Shown: positions 1-14,860 of the stretch, piece by piece
How positions within the stretch are numbered: position 1 is the first letter of the stretch
How the letters are laid out: each line of letters opens with the position of its first letter
Source: an uncultured Hippea sp.
GTDB taxonomy: Bacteria; Campylobacterota_A; Desulfurellia; JAADFJ01
Direction: 5' to 3'
NCBI GenBank assembly: GCA_913009315.1
Contig: CAJVZA010000051.1
Coordinates: forward strand, 1 to 14,860
Length of the DNA: 14,860 nucleotides
Made by a program: the position numbers and the translations under genes
The notes under the pieces: generated by a model
Databases searched by the model: none
Seen by the model: the letters and a program-made list of their open reading frames with translations, nothing else
Told to the model about the DNA's origin: nothing

Positions 1-116
1 GTAGATAGGGAGACGAGATATATCAGTGTGAATGTATTTTTTTTTTTTTTCAAGCAGAAGACGGCATACGAGATATATCAGTGTGACTGGAGTTCAGACG
101 TGTGCTCTTCCGATCT
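1..116. other. Illumina P7/index adapter and junk (non-genomic)
   Basis: Positions 51-116 are the Illumina P7 end followed by the TruSeq index-read adapter, ending in CTCTTCCGATCT at 105-116. The 8 bases at 75-82 between the two constant parts read ATATCAGT, the reverse complement of ACTGATAT, which I recall as TruSeq index 25. Positions 13-31 repeat 19 bases of the same adapter (68-86), and 37-50 is a run of 14 T. None of this is organism DNA. It adds a false C-terminal tail ending IGRAHV to the reading frame on the minus strand, a familiar adapter artefact in protein databases. Confidence 0.98.
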
Positions 117-8433: not shown

Positions 8434-9219
8434 ATGAACCTGTTTCATATAAATCTGATCCAGTTCTGGCTTTTTTTAGCCATTTTCATCAGAGTTATAA
8501 CGATTATCTCGGTAGCTCCGATTTTCGGCAGTTTATTGATACCGGCTCAGATTAAGATTGCGATATCTTTGATTCTTTCGGTTTCTATTTTTATATTTAT
8601 GGACGGCAAGATCGCTCCGCCTGTTTTAAATAATATAGTAGAGATTTTACTCTTTACTGTAAAGCAGCTCATAATTGCGGCGTTTATTGCACTCTTTATT
8701 CATATAATTTGGGCTGCCGCTCAGATGGCCGGAGAATTGCTTGGTTATCTGATGGGCTTATCTCTTGCAAACGTTATATCTCAAAACAGTATACAGATTT
8801 CTCTGTTGTCCGAGCTTGAAGGAATATTTGCAATTCTTATCTTTTTAGCCATCGATGGTCATTACTGGTTCATAGAGGCTATTTATCAGAGTTTTAGTGT
8901 TATCGGATGGGGATCTATAAATTTAAATCAGCAATTTCTGAAGGAGTTTATTGATCTTGGTGCGCAGTTTTTTATAATGGCTGCCAAAATAGGCATGCCG
9001 GGCATAGTTTCGATGCTGCTGGTTAGCGTCTCTTTCGCCATTTTATCCCGCACAATTCCTCAGATGAATATCCTGATTGTCGGTTTTCCTATAAAAATAG
9101 CTGTCGGCTTAATGGTGCTTGGAGTCAGTTTCTCTTTTATCGGTTATGCTTTGTCCGGTTATTATGAAGATTTTCATCAGAATCTTATTCCTATTATGAG
9201 ATTGTTCGGTCATGGCTGA
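8434..9219 (+). CDS. fliR: Flagellar export gate protein FliR
   Basis: FliR joins FliP to complete the helical export-gate core in the inner membrane. The 261-residue protein is almost all membrane-spanning, with six or so TM segments and typical motifs: FIRVITIISVAPIFGSLLIP near the N-terminus, AQMAGELLGYLMGLSLANVI at about 95-114, LAIDGHYWFIEAIYQSF at about 146-162, and RTIPQMNILIVGFPIKIAVG at about 209-228. The length matches the family. The ATG at 8434 lacks a strong Shine-Dalgarno, so it is perhaps coupled to fliQ 11 nt upstream. Its end overlaps flhB by 8 nt. Confidence 0.96.
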   Translation: MNLFHINLIQFWLFLAIFIRVITIISVAPIFGSLLIPAQIKIAISLILSVSIFIFMDGKIAPPVLNNIVEILLFTVKQLIIAAFIALFIHIIWAAAQMAGELLGYLMGLSLANVISQNSIQISLLSELEGIFAILIFLAIDGHYWFIEAIYQSFSVIGWGSINLNQQFLKEFIDLGAQFFIMAAKIGMPGIVSMLLVSVSFAILSRTIPQMNILIVGFPIKIAVGLMVLGVSFSFIGYALSGYYEDFHQNLIPIMRLFGHG

Positions 9220-10255
9220 CGGGGAAAAGACCGAAAAAGCTACACCGAAAAAGTTAAGGGAGGCCAGAGAGAAGGGGCAGGTAGCCAAAAGTGCGGAGCT
9301 TGCAGGTGCCATAGTCCTTTTGAGTGCCGTGCTGTTTTTTTATTTCAAATATAATTCTATGATAGCCGACAGTCTGTCGATGATGCGCCACTATTACAAT
9401 ATGCAGCCTTTTGAATTCAACATCGCCAATGTGGCATCACTCTTTAGAGATGCTCTCTCTATCTTTATTAAGCTTCTTATGCCGTTTATGGTGATTCTTG
9501 TTGTTGTGTCCGTGCTTGCAAATGTAGCTCAGTTCGGTTTTCTTTTTACAACAAAACCGCTTGAATTCAAAATGGACAAACTAAATCCGATTAATGGTCT
9601 TAAAAATATGTTTTCATTAAAAGCATTCGGAGAGATGGTAAAATCAATTCTCAAAATTCTAATCGTACTCTATGTTGCATATCTGGTCATTAAAAGTGAA
9701 ATTATTGCTTCACCTATGCTGATTTCAAGCTCGCTGAAACAGTCATTTTATCATCTGTTGGCTGCCTTGTGGAACCTGATGCTTTATCTTGTTCTGCTTA
9801 TTTTCCTGCTTTCAATTATGGATTTCTTTTCTCAGCGATTTGTATATATGAAGAATCAGAGGATGAGCAAATTTGAGATCAAAGAGGAGATGAAACAGAT
9901 GGAAGGGGATCCGCTGATTAGAGCCCGCGTAAAAAGGCTGCAGCGCGAAATGGCAAAAAGACGTATGATGGAAGCTGTCAAAACTGCTACTGTTGTAATA
10001 ACAAATCCGACTCATTTTGCCATAGCCTTGAAATATGAAACCTCCAAAAGTAATGCACCGCTTGTTGTTGCAAAAGGCGTTGACTCGGTTGCTTTGAGAA
10101 TAAAAGAGATAGCCGTCGAAAACGATGTTCCGACTGTAGAGAACCGAACGCTTGTAAGGGCGATGTATCGATTTTGTAATGTTGACAAAGAGATACCGGA
10201 AAAATTCTACAAGGCAGTGGCAGAGATCATTGCGTATATATGGGGTAAAACATAG
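9212..10255 (+). CDS. flhB: Flagellar export switch protein FlhB
   Basis: FlhB controls the switch from rod/hook to filament export substrates. The 347-residue protein starts with the signature GEKTEKATPKKLREAREKGQ (about 3-22), has four TM segments (about 30-50, 85-110, 140-165, 180-205), then a cytoplasmic domain with DPLIRARVKRLQREMAKRRM and the self-cleavage site Asn265-Pro266-Thr267-His268, in VITNPTHFAIAL. The length is near the family average. The start overlaps fliR by 8 nt. The TAG stop is formed by the first three bases of a perfect inverted repeat; removing the element with one TA copy would leave a TAA stop at the same codon, so the protein end would be unchanged. flhA, often the next gene, is not present. 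Confidence 0.97.
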   Translation: MADGEKTEKATPKKLREAREKGQVAKSAELAGAIVLLSAVLFFYFKYNSMIADSLSMMRHYYNMQPFEFNIANVASLFRDALSIFIKLLMPFMVILVVVSVLANVAQFGFLFTTKPLEFKMDKLNPINGLKNMFSLKAFGEMVKSILKILIVLYVAYLVIKSEIIASPMLISSSLKQSFYHLLAALWNLMLYLVLLIFLLSIMDFFSQRFVYMKNQRMSKFEIKEEMKQMEGDPLIRARVKRLQREMAKRRMMEAVKTATVVITNPTHFAIALKYETSKSNAPLVVAKGVDSVALRIKEIAVENDVPTVENRTLVRAMYRFCNVDKEIPEKFYKAVAEIIAYIWGKT

Positions 10256-10307
10256 GAGACCACTGCACAATAAGCAGATTCACAACTTATTGTGCAGTGG
10301 TCTCCTA
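10253..10307. repeat. Perfect 22-bp inverted repeat on the flhB stop codon
   Basis: The left arm 10253-10274 and right arm 10286-10307 are exact reverse complements, with the 11-nt loop CAGATTCACAA. The left arm starts TAGGAGACCACTGCACAATA. If the outer TA on each side is taken as a 2-bp target duplication, the unit is a 51-bp element GGAGACC...GGTCTCC. It may be a miniature transposable element or insertion-sequence scar, a REP-like unit, or a strong bidirectional terminator (only a weak ATTTTG follows, not a T-run). No second copy is seen in this window. Confidence 0.85.
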
Positions 10308-10325: not shown

Positions 10326-10354
10326 TTGACATTACCGGATATTTTGATTATGCT
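10326..10354 (+). promoter_or_regulatory. Sigma-70 promoter of the PEPCK-like gene
   Basis: TTGACA (10326-10331) and TATGCT (10349-10354) are spaced by 17 bp. It lies between the flhB-stop inverted repeat and the next gene, leaving about a 50-nt leader, so that gene is probably transcribed independently of the flagellar run. Confidence 0.6.
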
Positions 10355-10409: not shown

Positions 10410-11900
10410 ATGAATAATCTGCTTTTTACTAAGAGAATTGCATGCGGAAATCTTCTTTCCAATCTAAGTACAGATGAGCTAAAAATTTTGGCAAGCAGTG
10501 ATGCTATCGGAAATCGATGGGGGATAACGGTTTATCGCAGTCTAATTCGCTCCAGGAGTGCAGCTGAGACGTATTTGATAAGTGAACCTACAGTTGATCT
10601 GAAAAATGAGATTAATAGTGTCAGGCAATATCTGAACAGTGTTGATCTGATCGGAGTTGACAAAGATATCTGCAAAGATGAAAAGTTTCATTTTAATGTT
10701 AAATTTTACGTAACAAGAAGATTTGCCAGAATTGCTCATATGTTTAACGCAAACTTTTTTCCCTCAACCAATGCAGATGATCCCGATATTGTTATTGTCA
10801 TGGTTCCCGAATGGAAAAATAGAGCCATTTATGTTTATCCATCAGATAACGGCATTGTCTATAACTTTGTTTTAGGGACAGACTATTACGGTGAAGCGAA
10901 AATGGCGGCATTGAGATCCGCACTTTATTTAACACGTGAATATCGAAACGGGCTCGGACTTCATGCCGGAGGAAAACTTTTCAGAGCAATAGAGAATGAT
11001 CGGGTTGTTGAAAATGGAGCACTGATTTTTGGACTTTCGGGAACAGGCAAAACCACCATAACAATTAATGATCATGGATTTGTTCCACCCGAGGGTATAT
11101 CAATACTTCAGGATGATATAATGCTTCTAAGAGATGACGGCTTTGCATATGGAACGGAAAACAATTTTTATATCAAAACAGACAATGTTACAAACCAGCC
11201 TGAAATTTTTCAAGCCGTGCAAGCCCCCACGGCTATTGCTGAAAATGTGTGGGTTGATGATGAGGGTGAGATTGATTTTGATAATCTTTCGCTGACATCG
11301 AACGGCCGCTGTCTGGTGTCCAGATTTGCGCTGCCTCACTCAAGAGACAGTGTTGATCTGTCCGATGTTTCTTGTATGTTTTTTAATACAAGAAGAAACG
11401 ATTTGCCGCCTATTGGCAAGCTGTCATCGGCCTATCAGGCTGCTGCTTATTTTATGCTTGGAGAATCGATGTCTACATCCGCATCTGATCCGGAATCGGT
11501 GGGAAAATCAAAAAGGGTTGTGGGCTTTAATCCGTTTGTTCTGAATCACCCGGAAAAAGAGGGCAACAAGCTGCTTGAGATTCTAAAGAAAAACAAGATC
11601 GAGGTGTATATTGTTAATACGGGAAGCATCGGAGAAAAAGATATAACATCGGATATAACAATGGGATTAATTAAGGATGTGATAAGGGAAAATATTAAAT
11701 GGAAATTCGATGATGTGTTAGGATATTTTACCGTGGAAAAATCTGCATCTTGCGATCCGAGAGAATTTGATCCGTACAAAATATTCGGTGAAGACTACTC
11801 TCTTATGATGGAAAGATTGTATAACGAAAGAATGAGCTATTTGTCTGAATTTGACGGGTTAAATAAAGAGATTTCCGGGCATCTTAGAGAGAGAAGATGA
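10410..11900 (+). CDS. Divergent ATP-type phosphoenolpyruvate carboxykinase homologue
   Basis: ATP-type PEPCK interconverts oxaloacetate plus ATP with phosphoenolpyruvate, CO2 and ADP in the cytosol. The 496-residue product is shorter than the usual 525-540. It has the P-loop GLSGTGKTT (208-216), the second metal/phosphate motif LQDD (Asp235-Asp236), NFYIKTDNVTNQPEIFQAV followed by AENVWVDDEGEIDFDN, SNGR with Arg300 (aligning to E. coli Arg333), and IVNTGSIG near the C-terminus. By eye, Arg49 aligns with oxaloacetate-binding Arg65, Lys164 with Lys212 and His185 with metal ligand His232. The metal ligand Lys213 appears replaced by Met165, and the P-loop-to-DD spacing is 7 residues longer. It could be a divergent active PEPCK or a related kinase-fold enzyme. 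Strong ribosome binding site AGGGGGG (10396-10402). Its stop overlaps a small downstream frame. Confidence 0.8.
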   Translation: MNNLLFTKRIACGNLLSNLSTDELKILASSDAIGNRWGITVYRSLIRSRSAAETYLISEPTVDLKNEINSVRQYLNSVDLIGVDKDICKDEKFHFNVKFYVTRRFARIAHMFNANFFPSTNADDPDIVIVMVPEWKNRAIYVYPSDNGIVYNFVLGTDYYGEAKMAALRSALYLTREYRNGLGLHAGGKLFRAIENDRVVENGALIFGLSGTGKTTITINDHGFVPPEGISILQDDIMLLRDDGFAYGTENNFYIKTDNVTNQPEIFQAVQAPTAIAENVWVDDEGEIDFDNLSLTSNGRCLVSRFALPHSRDSVDLSDVSCMFFNTRRNDLPPIGKLSSAYQAAAYFMLGESMSTSASDPESVGKSKRVVGFNPFVLNHPEKEGNKLLEILKKNKIEVYIVNTGSIGEKDITSDITMGLIKDVIRENIKWKFDDVLGYFTVEKSASCDPREFDPYKIFGEDYSLMMERLYNERMSYLSEFDGLNKEISGHLRERR

Positions 11901-12018: not shown

Positions 12019-12049
12019 TTGGGGAAACGCATAAGATGCATTTCCCCAA
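12019..12049 (+). terminator. Strong hairpin after PEPCK-like gene, probable terminator
   Basis: TTGGGGAAACGCAT (12019-12032) pairs with ATGCATTTCCCCAA (12036-12049) with one mismatch and a 3-nt loop AAG. A T-rich stretch (TTAACTTTCTTCTG) follows a few bases later rather than directly, so termination is likely but not textbook. Confidence 0.6.
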
Positions 12050-12497: not shown

Positions 12498-14738
12498 TTA
12501 ATTTACGCAATGTCTTAAAAATATTCCTGTAGAACCGTTTGATTTCATAATATCATCTACGGTTCCCATAGCTATCACCGATCCGCCCCTGTTGCCTCCT
12601 TCCGGACCAAGGTCTATTATATAATCTGAATGCATCATGATATCTGTGTTGTGTTCAATGATGATTACACTGTTTCCCTTGTCAACGAGTCGATCAAGGA
12701 GTTTTATCAGTTTGGATATATCGGATTTATGAAGTCCTACGGTAGGCTCATCCAGTAGATACAAAGTATTGCTTCCGTTCCTTCTTACCAATTCTCTTGA
12801 CAGTTTGAGGCGCTGCGATTCTCCTCCTGAAAGCGTTGTGGCCGGCTGCCCTAATCTTAGATAACCTAACCCTATCTCTTCAAGAATATCCAGCTTGCGT
12901 TTTACTGAAGGAATATTGGGAAAAAAATCGGCTGCTTGAATAATAGTCATATTAAGTATGTCTGCTATTGTTTTTTCCTTGAATTTTACTTTTAATGTTT
13001 CTTTATTAAAGCGCAATCCTCCGCAAATTTCGCATGTAACATAAACATCAGACATAAACTGCATCTCTATCTTGATTGTACCGGTTCCCTTGCAATGCTC
13101 GCATCTTCCGCCCGGTACATTAAAACTGAAACGACTTGATTTCCAACCCCATCGTTTGGCGACTTCGGTTTGGCTCAATAATTCTCTGATATCTGTTAAT
13201 ACACCGGTATATGTTGCAGGATTTGATCTGCTTGTTCTTCCGATAGGTGTTTGATCTACCGACATAATACTGCCAATATTGTCGATTCCTGTAATTTTCT
13301 CATATTTAGTTTGAATAGGAATCTGCCTGCCGTAAAAGGCAGATTCTGCAGCCGGAAGCAGTGTGTCAAATATCAAGCTTGATTTTCCGGAACCTGATAC
13401 TCCGGTTATGCATACTATTTCACCAAGCGGAAAAGCGATCGTAAGATCTTTAAGATTGTGCGTACAGGTTTTATATAGAGTAACAAATTTTTTTGAAGTT
13501 CTTGCGCTGATTTTTTTGGGCATTTTTAAAAGTCCTGCAAGATACTTTCCTGTGAGCGATTTAGGATTTTTTTCAATCTGCTCAGGAGTTCCTTTTGCGG
13601 TGATCTCTCCTCCGTATCTTCCGGATCCCGGACCCAAATCAATTAAATAATCGGCAGATCTTATTATTTGTTCATCATGCTCGACAACTATGACGCTGTT
13701 TCTCAAACCAACCAATTCTCTTAGGGATTTTATCAATTTTTCGGTATCCGAGGGATGCAGACCTATAGACGGTTCATCAAGAACATAGATTACATCGGAA
13801 AGCCCCGATCCAATTTGTGTCGCAAGTCTGATTCTTTGAGATTCTCCTCCTGAAAGAGTTGATGATTTTCTCATAAGTGTTATATAATAGAGTCCGCTTT
13901 CCATTAAAAATTTTGTTCTGTCCTTTATGCCTTTTATGATAGGTGCTGAAATTTTTGCAGCTGTGCCCGAAAGTGATTGTTCTGTCTCGCATATAAAACT
14001 GTAAAATCGGTCAATTTCCATGCTTGAAGCTTCTATTATGCTGCAGCCGTTTATCGTAAACGAAAGGGGGACTTTGGCCAGTCTTTTTCCGTCGCAGCTT
14101 TTGCAGGGAAGTTCTATCATATAATTATCAATATCTCTTTTGAGTTCATATGATTCGGTTCGTCCGTAAATTTTCCCCACGATAGTTATTAAACCGGAGA
14201 AGTTCAGCTGATCCGTTTTGGTTTGCTGCGGGACTCCGTACAGCAATATCTGCCGTTCCTTTTCTGTTAGGCGGCTGAACGGTTTATAGAGATCTATATT
14301 ATAAAATTCCGCTGCCCGTCTGAGTGTTTTTCGTGCTGCTGAAAATGGATTGCGAAAGATAAGAGGAATCGCCCCTTCTCTGAGTGACAGCGAAGGATCC
14401 TTTACAAATCGATTGATATCAAGCTGGTAGCGTACTCCCAGGCCGCCGCATTCCGTACATGCGCCTTGCGGACCGTTGAATGAAAAAAGTTGCGGAGTTA
14501 TTTTAGGATAACTTATTAGACAGTACGGGCAGGCAAGTTGGTTTGAAAGCGTAAAGCTTGAATCCTCCGATTCTATTGACGCAATTGCTCCCGATAGCGC
14601 TAAGGCGTTCTGTAAAGAATTGGCGAGCCTTGATCGTATATCCTTTTTCATTATCATTCGATCGATAATCACTGAAATGTCATGCCTTTTGTTTTTGTCT
14701 AAGACAATCTCATCTTCCAGCTTCATCATTTTGCCGTC
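12498..14738 (-). CDS. uvrA: Excinuclease ABC subunit A, 5'-truncated by contig end
   Basis: UvrA finds DNA lesions and loads UvrB in nucleotide excision repair. 746 genuine residues are present; the family is about 940, so roughly the first 190, including the first Walker A, are missing beyond the adapter. Visible in order: a CxxC...CxxC zinc module (Cys70, 73, 94, 97 counted from the first genuine residue), the first ABC signature LSGGESQR with LDEPSIGLH, the second Walker A GVSGSGKSS (about 13380-13406), the second zinc finger (CEHC...CEIC), and the second signature LSGGESQR with DEPTVGLH. It ends FLRHCVN with TAA. Residues before Asp1 in the open frame (ending STLFPYTTLFRS) are translated adapter. 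Gene orientation converges on the PEPCK-like gene. Confidence 0.97.
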   Translation of the reverse strand, partial: DGKMMKLEDEIVLDKNKRHDISVIIDRMIMKKDIRSRLANSLQNALALSGAIASIESEDSSFTLSNQLACPYCLISYPKITPQLFSFNGPQGACTECGGLGVRYQLDINRFVKDPSLSLREGAIPLIFRNPFSAARKTLRRAAEFYNIDLYKPFSRLTEKERQILLYGVPQQTKTDQLNFSGLITIVGKIYGRTESYELKRDIDNYMIELPCKSCDGKRLAKVPLSFTINGCSIIEASSMEIDRFYSFICETEQSLSGTAAKISAPIIKGIKDRTKFLMESGLYYITLMRKSSTLSGGESQRIRLATQIGSGLSDVIYVLDEPSIGLHPSDTEKLIKSLRELVGLRNSVIVVEHDEQIIRSADYLIDLGPGSGRYGGEITAKGTPEQIEKNPKSLTGKYLAGLLKMPKKISARTSKKFVTLYKTCTHNLKDLTIAFPLGEIVCITGVSGSGKSSLIFDTLLPAAESAFYGRQIPIQTKYEKITGIDNIGSIMSVDQTPIGRTSRSNPATYTGVLTDIRELLSQTEVAKRWGWKSSRFSFNVPGGRCEHCKGTGTIKIEMQFMSDVYVTCEICGGLRFNKETLKVKFKEKTIADILNMTIIQAADFFPNIPSVKRKLDILEEIGLGYLRLGQPATTLSGGESQRLKLSRELVRRNGSNTLYLLDEPTVGLHKSDISKLIKLLDRLVDKGNSVIIIEHNTDIMMHSDYIIDLGPEGGNRGGSVIAMGTVDDIMKSNGSTGIFLRHCVN

Positions 14739-14860
14739 AGATCGGAAGAGCGTCGTGTAGGGAAAGAGTGTAGATCTCGGTGGTCGCCGTATCATTAAAA
14801 AAAAAAAACATAAGAATAGAAAAAAAGAGAAAAAAAAAAATAAAATCACTTTAGTATCAT
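14739..14860. other. Illumina universal (P5-side) adapter and junk (non-genomic)
   Basis: 14739-14796 is the reverse complement of the TruSeq universal adapter: it begins AGATCGGAAGAGCGTCGTGT and ends GGTCGCCGTATCATT. A run of 12 A follows (14797-14808), then AT-rich low-complexity sequence typical of read-through past the fragment end. Translated on the minus strand it gives the well-known artefact peptide ending STLFPYTTLFRS in front of uvrA. Confidence 0.98.

Follow-up and report, generated by a model that had tools for sequence, protein, structure and literature searches.

The flhB gene in the window analysed here (the whole stretch of 14,860 nucleotides) ends in a perfect hairpin that starts on the stop codon itself, and the question is whether this hairpin is a dedicated terminator or a mobile element that has landed in the stop codon, both of which had been put forward in the original prediction. 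Our data indicate that it is almost certainly a type II MITE, a very small non-autonomous transposon.

A perfect inverted repeat begins on the flhB stop codon

The flhB open reading frame (9212..10255, + strand) encodes 347 aa and shares 96% identity, in the best segment, with its orthologue in stretch L071 of a sister species. Its altered stop codon, TAG, lies at 10253-10255, so that the stem begins on the T of this codon. An inverted-repeat search placed the left arm (an element end plus TA) at 10253..10274 (+) and the right arm at 10286..10307 (+); the 22-bp arms are 100% complementary and 11 nt apart, exactly as originally described. No longer inverted repeat was found in the window (arms within 60 nt), the runner-up being 14 bp at 93%. 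When set beside the 265-bp elements and the remaining mini forms described below, the 11-nt loop, CAGATTCACAA (10275..10285), was seen to correspond to the inner part of the terminal sequence in the long form, adjoining the junction of its internal deletion. The predicted RNA fold has a free energy of -37.7 kcal/mol, compared to a mean of -9.5 for shuffled sequences (z -11.5). A chance origin is excluded by the stem itself, and also by the 165 arm matches in the genome against 0 for a reversed control.

Elsewhere in the window, a near-perfect 14-bp hairpin with a 3-nt loop (12019-12049) lies between convergent pckA-like and uvrA-like genes and is probably an ordinary terminator. It should be noted that Illumina adapter sequence is present at both contig ends (window ~51-116 and 14739-14797), with AGATCGGAAGAGC matching exactly at 104-116 (-) and 14739-14751 (+). 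The terminal ORFs, histidine ammonia-lyase-like and UvrA-like, therefore run into chimeric ends, for example 'IRRPPRSTLFPYTTLFRS' in ORF 12498-14849.

The orthologous site is empty in a sister species

In the sister species G001 (JAADFJ01; Campylobacterota bacterium M_MaxBin.016), the orthologous site is uninterrupted: ACATAAGCAT stands at the precise position of ACATA[51 bp]TAAGCAT in the window. The empty site in stretches L205 and L071 of this genome (...AAAACATAAGCATTTT...) gives a net insertion in the window of 53 bp, i.e. 51 bp plus TA. The longer alignment sets GGGGCAAAACATAAGCATTTTGTAAAATTG in G001 against GGGGTAAAACATA, GGAGACC...GGTCTCC and TAAGCATTTTGTAAAATTG in succession in the window. 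In a second relative, the congener G002, flhB ends ACATAA, again without the hairpin. It follows that the window carries the derived state, an insertion of 51 bp plus TA.

The inserted element, GGAGACCACTGCACAATAAGCAGATTCACAACTTATTGTGCAGTGGTCTCC (10255..10305), missing at the orthologous site and with the same family found at many loci, is flanked by two copies of TA. The left copy (10253..10254) and the G that opens the element make up the TAG stop codon that flhB now has; the right copy (10306..10307) is followed by A to give TAA, as in the stops of G001 and G002. As judged from these alignments and the ORF end, the insertion converted the TAA stop of flhB into TAG without altering the predicted FlhB protein. 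The empty site thus matches the proposal, made from the window alone, of a 51-bp TA-flanked element inserted in a TAA stop with FlhB intact. The hairpin is neither kept in place in the two relatives whose flhB ends were compared nor, as described below, without other copies in the genome, these being the observations that were to speak against mobility.

The element belongs to a high-copy family with two size classes

An 81-bp query gave 65 BLAST matches in the element's own genome (G000; 1.74 Mb, 96 contigs, 88% complete). Among 40 relatives, there were 26 matches in the sister species, 1 in G002 and none in the 38 others, nor was any found outside the genus. The arm pattern TGAGACCACTGCACARTAARC, allowing ≤3 mismatches, occurred at 165 places in G000, compared to 0 for the reversed pattern. 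These counts are lower bounds because the assembly is incomplete and is interrupted by the repeat; many contigs stop within the long form, ~80-120 bp past one of its ends. A search of the same genome for the arm had been suggested as a means of telling a mobile element from a terminator, and the number of matches, their conserved ends and their TA-containing flanks point to a mobile element. Viral contigs gave no exact arm match and plasmids no match to the 265-bp form; spread through viruses or plasmids was rejected on these grounds. On the sequence comparisons made here, the MITE family is found in one genus only and is a new sequence family of an ordinary kind; we found no earlier description of it in the open-access literature.

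By pairing ends in stretches around the listed places, we obtained 52 complete elements from G000 and G001. These fall into two size classes with common ends, 49-57-bp hairpins and ~265-bp elements, both with TGAGACCACTGCACAATAA-type terminal inverted repeats. The minis (31/52) measure 47-55 bp from GAGACC to GGTCTC, or 49-57 bp including the terminal base on each side. The other 21 mostly measure 257-275 bp between the same points (~259-277 bp whole), with variants ranging from 136 to 427 bp. Long and mini forms have the first ~30 bp in common. The commonest mini has a 49-bp core (16/31), equal to the long form with its middle deleted across the short repeat GCTT, and the 52- and 55-bp cores have their deletion junctions elsewhere. 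The family has features by which MITEs are recognised: terminal inverted repeats conserved among copies (TGAGACCACTGCACARTAARC at both ends), multiple dispersed copies in G000, small size without a transposase gene (51 bp here, the ~265-bp forms also being too short for a transposase), and a target duplication with an empty site in a relative (TA at flhB, TNA family-wide).

Several long copies show additional peculiarities. Two of them (L020:1089-1521 and L024:1798-2134) carry additional inserted sequence in the middle, e.g. ...TTCAGGGCAACTCTATTAATCCG... in L020, perhaps from another repeat family nested inside the MITE. In a 263-bp copy (L158:945-1210; G000:C2, about 11144-11409), the right TTA duplication abuts the start of a queC-like ORF (TTATGAATGCATTG...). 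A 417-bp variant (L172:about 1049; G000:C21, about 14048) lies directly after the CCA end of an apparent tRNA-Leu gene.

Insertions occur at TNA and span the split between two species

To count duplications, each of the 52 complete elements was read as T-GAGACC...GGTCTC-A and the three flanking bases were compared. Identical 3-bp flanks were seen in 25/52 cases (TAA 14, TTA 10, TGA 1), compared to a mean of 14.2 and a maximum of 25 in 10,000 shuffles. TNA was present on both sides in 35 elements; their middle bases agreed in 25 cases and were complementary in only 6, as expected from direct duplication. The consensus around insertions is A-TWA-T, with a TNA duplication that is mostly TAA or TTA. 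In the window copy, G...C replaces the T...A of the family, and each flank shows TA, which on the right is extended to TAA. Since TAA is itself of the TNA type, this arrangement could have arisen in two ways: only TA was duplicated, or TAA was duplicated and one A was then lost on the left. The earlier reading of TA as the target duplication fits the flhB copy, where only TA is seen; for the family as a whole it is refined to the 3-bp TNA.

Comparison of L018 with L204 (G001) revealed another unambiguous case of a mini at a site that is empty in the sister species. Two further minis (L019 vs. L203, and L013:1490) are missing from G001, their flanks having diverged. Elements in L016/L052 and in L180/L051 are common to both species, the latter orthologous pair showing a 2-bp loop difference. 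The existence of both species-specific and common insertions indicates that the family was active both before G000 and G001 diverged and afterwards.

A candidate transposase of the IS5/IS1182 type

A 291-aa ORF (G000:C15:2362-3234) containing DUF772 and part of DDE_Tnp_1 has a 20-bp MITE end 118 bp upstream. The ORF is without its C-terminal part, the other element end was not seen, and the visible end has no TNA flank. The fragment matches NF033551 (IS1182) and NF033581 (IS5), both below the NCBIfam cut-offs. Its closest plasmid relative, a homologue with 56% identity in the Aliarcobacter cibarius plasmid pACIB, belongs to an IS of ~1.53 kb that is bounded by GAGACCACTGCA and, inverted, GAGCCCACTGCA, independently tying such ends to this transposase type. 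The similarity between the MITE and the IS is confined to the ends, which therefore makes the element a type II MITE in the sense of PMC10969869. The 3-bp TNA duplication known from IS1031-like members of the IS5 family was found throughout the MITE family, with TA only at the window copy. An intact autonomous parent IS was found neither in three congeners nor in the phylum. From the similarity of the ends we infer a link between the MITE and this IS5-like IS, and hence the identity of the transposase; the MITE would most likely be mobilised in trans by such an IS5-like enzyme. In L195/L150 (G000:C85), an IS3-type element containing two ORFs seems to interrupt an IS5-type transposase gene.

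Gene context and alternative explanations

With ORFs called by a simple length rule, 14/52 elements lie inside ORFs, compared to 73.5% of nearby TWA sites (p 3e-12). An insertion preference for stop codons was rejected, as 4/38 non-internal insertions vs. 6.1% expected is not a significant difference (p 0.20). Directly downstream of the flagellar genes, the window encodes a divergent 496-aa PEP-carboxykinase-like protein (10410-11900; NF006821, 438 bits). A motif search identified a putative sigma-70-type promoter of this gene, TTGACA-17-TATGCT (10326..10354, +), weak by itself (1 found vs. 1.2 expected in shuffles), which is outside the insertion in a region that aligns with G001. An insertion between the flhB ORF and this putative promoter probably did little harm.

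A dedicated bidirectional terminator, or a hairpin that stabilises the mRNA where the flagellar operon ends, would fit both the great stability of the RNA hairpin and its location immediately after the flhB frame, ahead of the putative promoter of the next gene. However, the hairpin is missing at this place in G001 and G002, the region contains 0 terminator-like sites, with no U-tract after the stem, and T-rich tails of minis are as frequent as in controls (17 vs. 15 of 62). Nor are convergent gene pairs preferred, the 36 intergenic copies comprising 8 convergent, 12 divergent and 16 co-directional cases. Arm mismatches within copies numbered 81, compared to 84.8 in shuffled pairings, and 1224/5000 shuffles were as low. 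Since the arms of one copy match no better than those of different copies, pairing is not maintained by selection, and the perfect stem of the window copy, with no arm covariation in the family, is best read as youth. Rfam gave no match for the hairpin. We therefore rejected a terminator or conserved RNA, and consider the terminator proposed in the original prediction very improbable. The hairpin may have an accidental local effect on RNA, and we infer that the MITE has no selected function. A REP/REPIN-type palindrome mobilised by RAYT (a Y1 transposase) would also be small, intergenic and high-copy, but the defining feature of REP elements, an unpaired GTAG or CGTC tag (PMC3733652), cannot be read in the sequence of the ends. 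In addition, the flanks fit target duplications, and the same ends bound the 265-bp elements and match the IS5-like IS, making this explanation scarcely credible.

A variant of the MITE explanation is that the minis are immobile, being 265-bp MITEs that have decayed in place by recurrent deletion at short repeats. The derivation of the 49-bp core by deletion across GCTT, the different junctions of the 52- and 55-bp cores and the loop difference between L180 and L051 are all consistent with this. However, the 49-bp core is the commonest and minis occur at sites that are empty in the sister species, so that each would need its own insertion followed by the same deletion. We think decay in place rather unlikely. 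The many copies, the conserved ends and the empty orthologous site thus uphold the mobile-element reading first offered for this hairpin.

Discussion

We propose that the flhB hairpin is a type II MITE that comprises little beyond the two terminal inverted repeats, ~20 bp each, of an IS5/IS1182-type IS. Internal deletion of a ~265-bp MITE would have brought its ends head to head. A transposase acting in trans would recognise the TGAGACCACTGCA... ends and direct insertion to TNA, usually inside A-TWA-T; one insertion in this lineage entered the flhB TAA stop before the next gene, leaving FlhB unchanged. By this scheme the mini form would move as such. Whether the 51-bp form is the complete moving unit, with two transposase-binding ends only ~11 bp apart, seems to us an evenly balanced question. 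If it is, it would be near the smallest possible DDE-type transposon and a test case for a paired-end complex on such short DNA, perhaps via a cruciform or hairpin. With the 49-57-bp copies, it becomes feasible to address by experiment how small a DDE-type transposon can be. The analysis settles the nature of a hairpin open to confusion with a regulatory terminator and provides a clear case of the harmless insertion of a mobile element into a stop codon. In this little-studied genus the family, one end of which occurs about every 10 kb, shapes the intergenic DNA and fragments assemblies.

Comparison with known systems places the element as follows. It resembles REP/REPIN sequences (PMC3733652, PMC3116915) in being a short intergenic palindrome of high copy number, but is without the GTAG/CGTC tag, is flanked by duplications and has ends matching a DDE-type IS. 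The Chunjie MITE of Geobacter uraniireducens has a ~235-bp full form and many shorter, mostly intergenic copies (PMC10969869); the likeness is to the published description, and the short form here differs from that described for Chunjie in being a complete element with both ends. The IS1031 subgroup of the IS5 family has a TNA target (PMC12016507), in keeping with the 3-bp TNA-type duplication at the family level and with a transposase fragment resembling the IS5 and IS1182 models; in contrast, that fragment scores below the NCBIfam cut-offs and the GAGACCACTGCA ends differ from the ISLrh ends quoted in PMC12016507. Prokaryotic type II MITEs are IS-derived with similarity confined to the ends, and range from 50 to 500 bp, with QMITE1 copies down to 39 bp (PMC10969869). 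The family described here shares with them its terminal inverted repeats, small size, dispersed and mostly intergenic copies and target duplication; its ends also occur next to a truncated IS-type transposase gene. It differs in being a new sequence family with a large class of nearly pure inverted repeats (49-57 bp), which is at the low end of the MITE size range.
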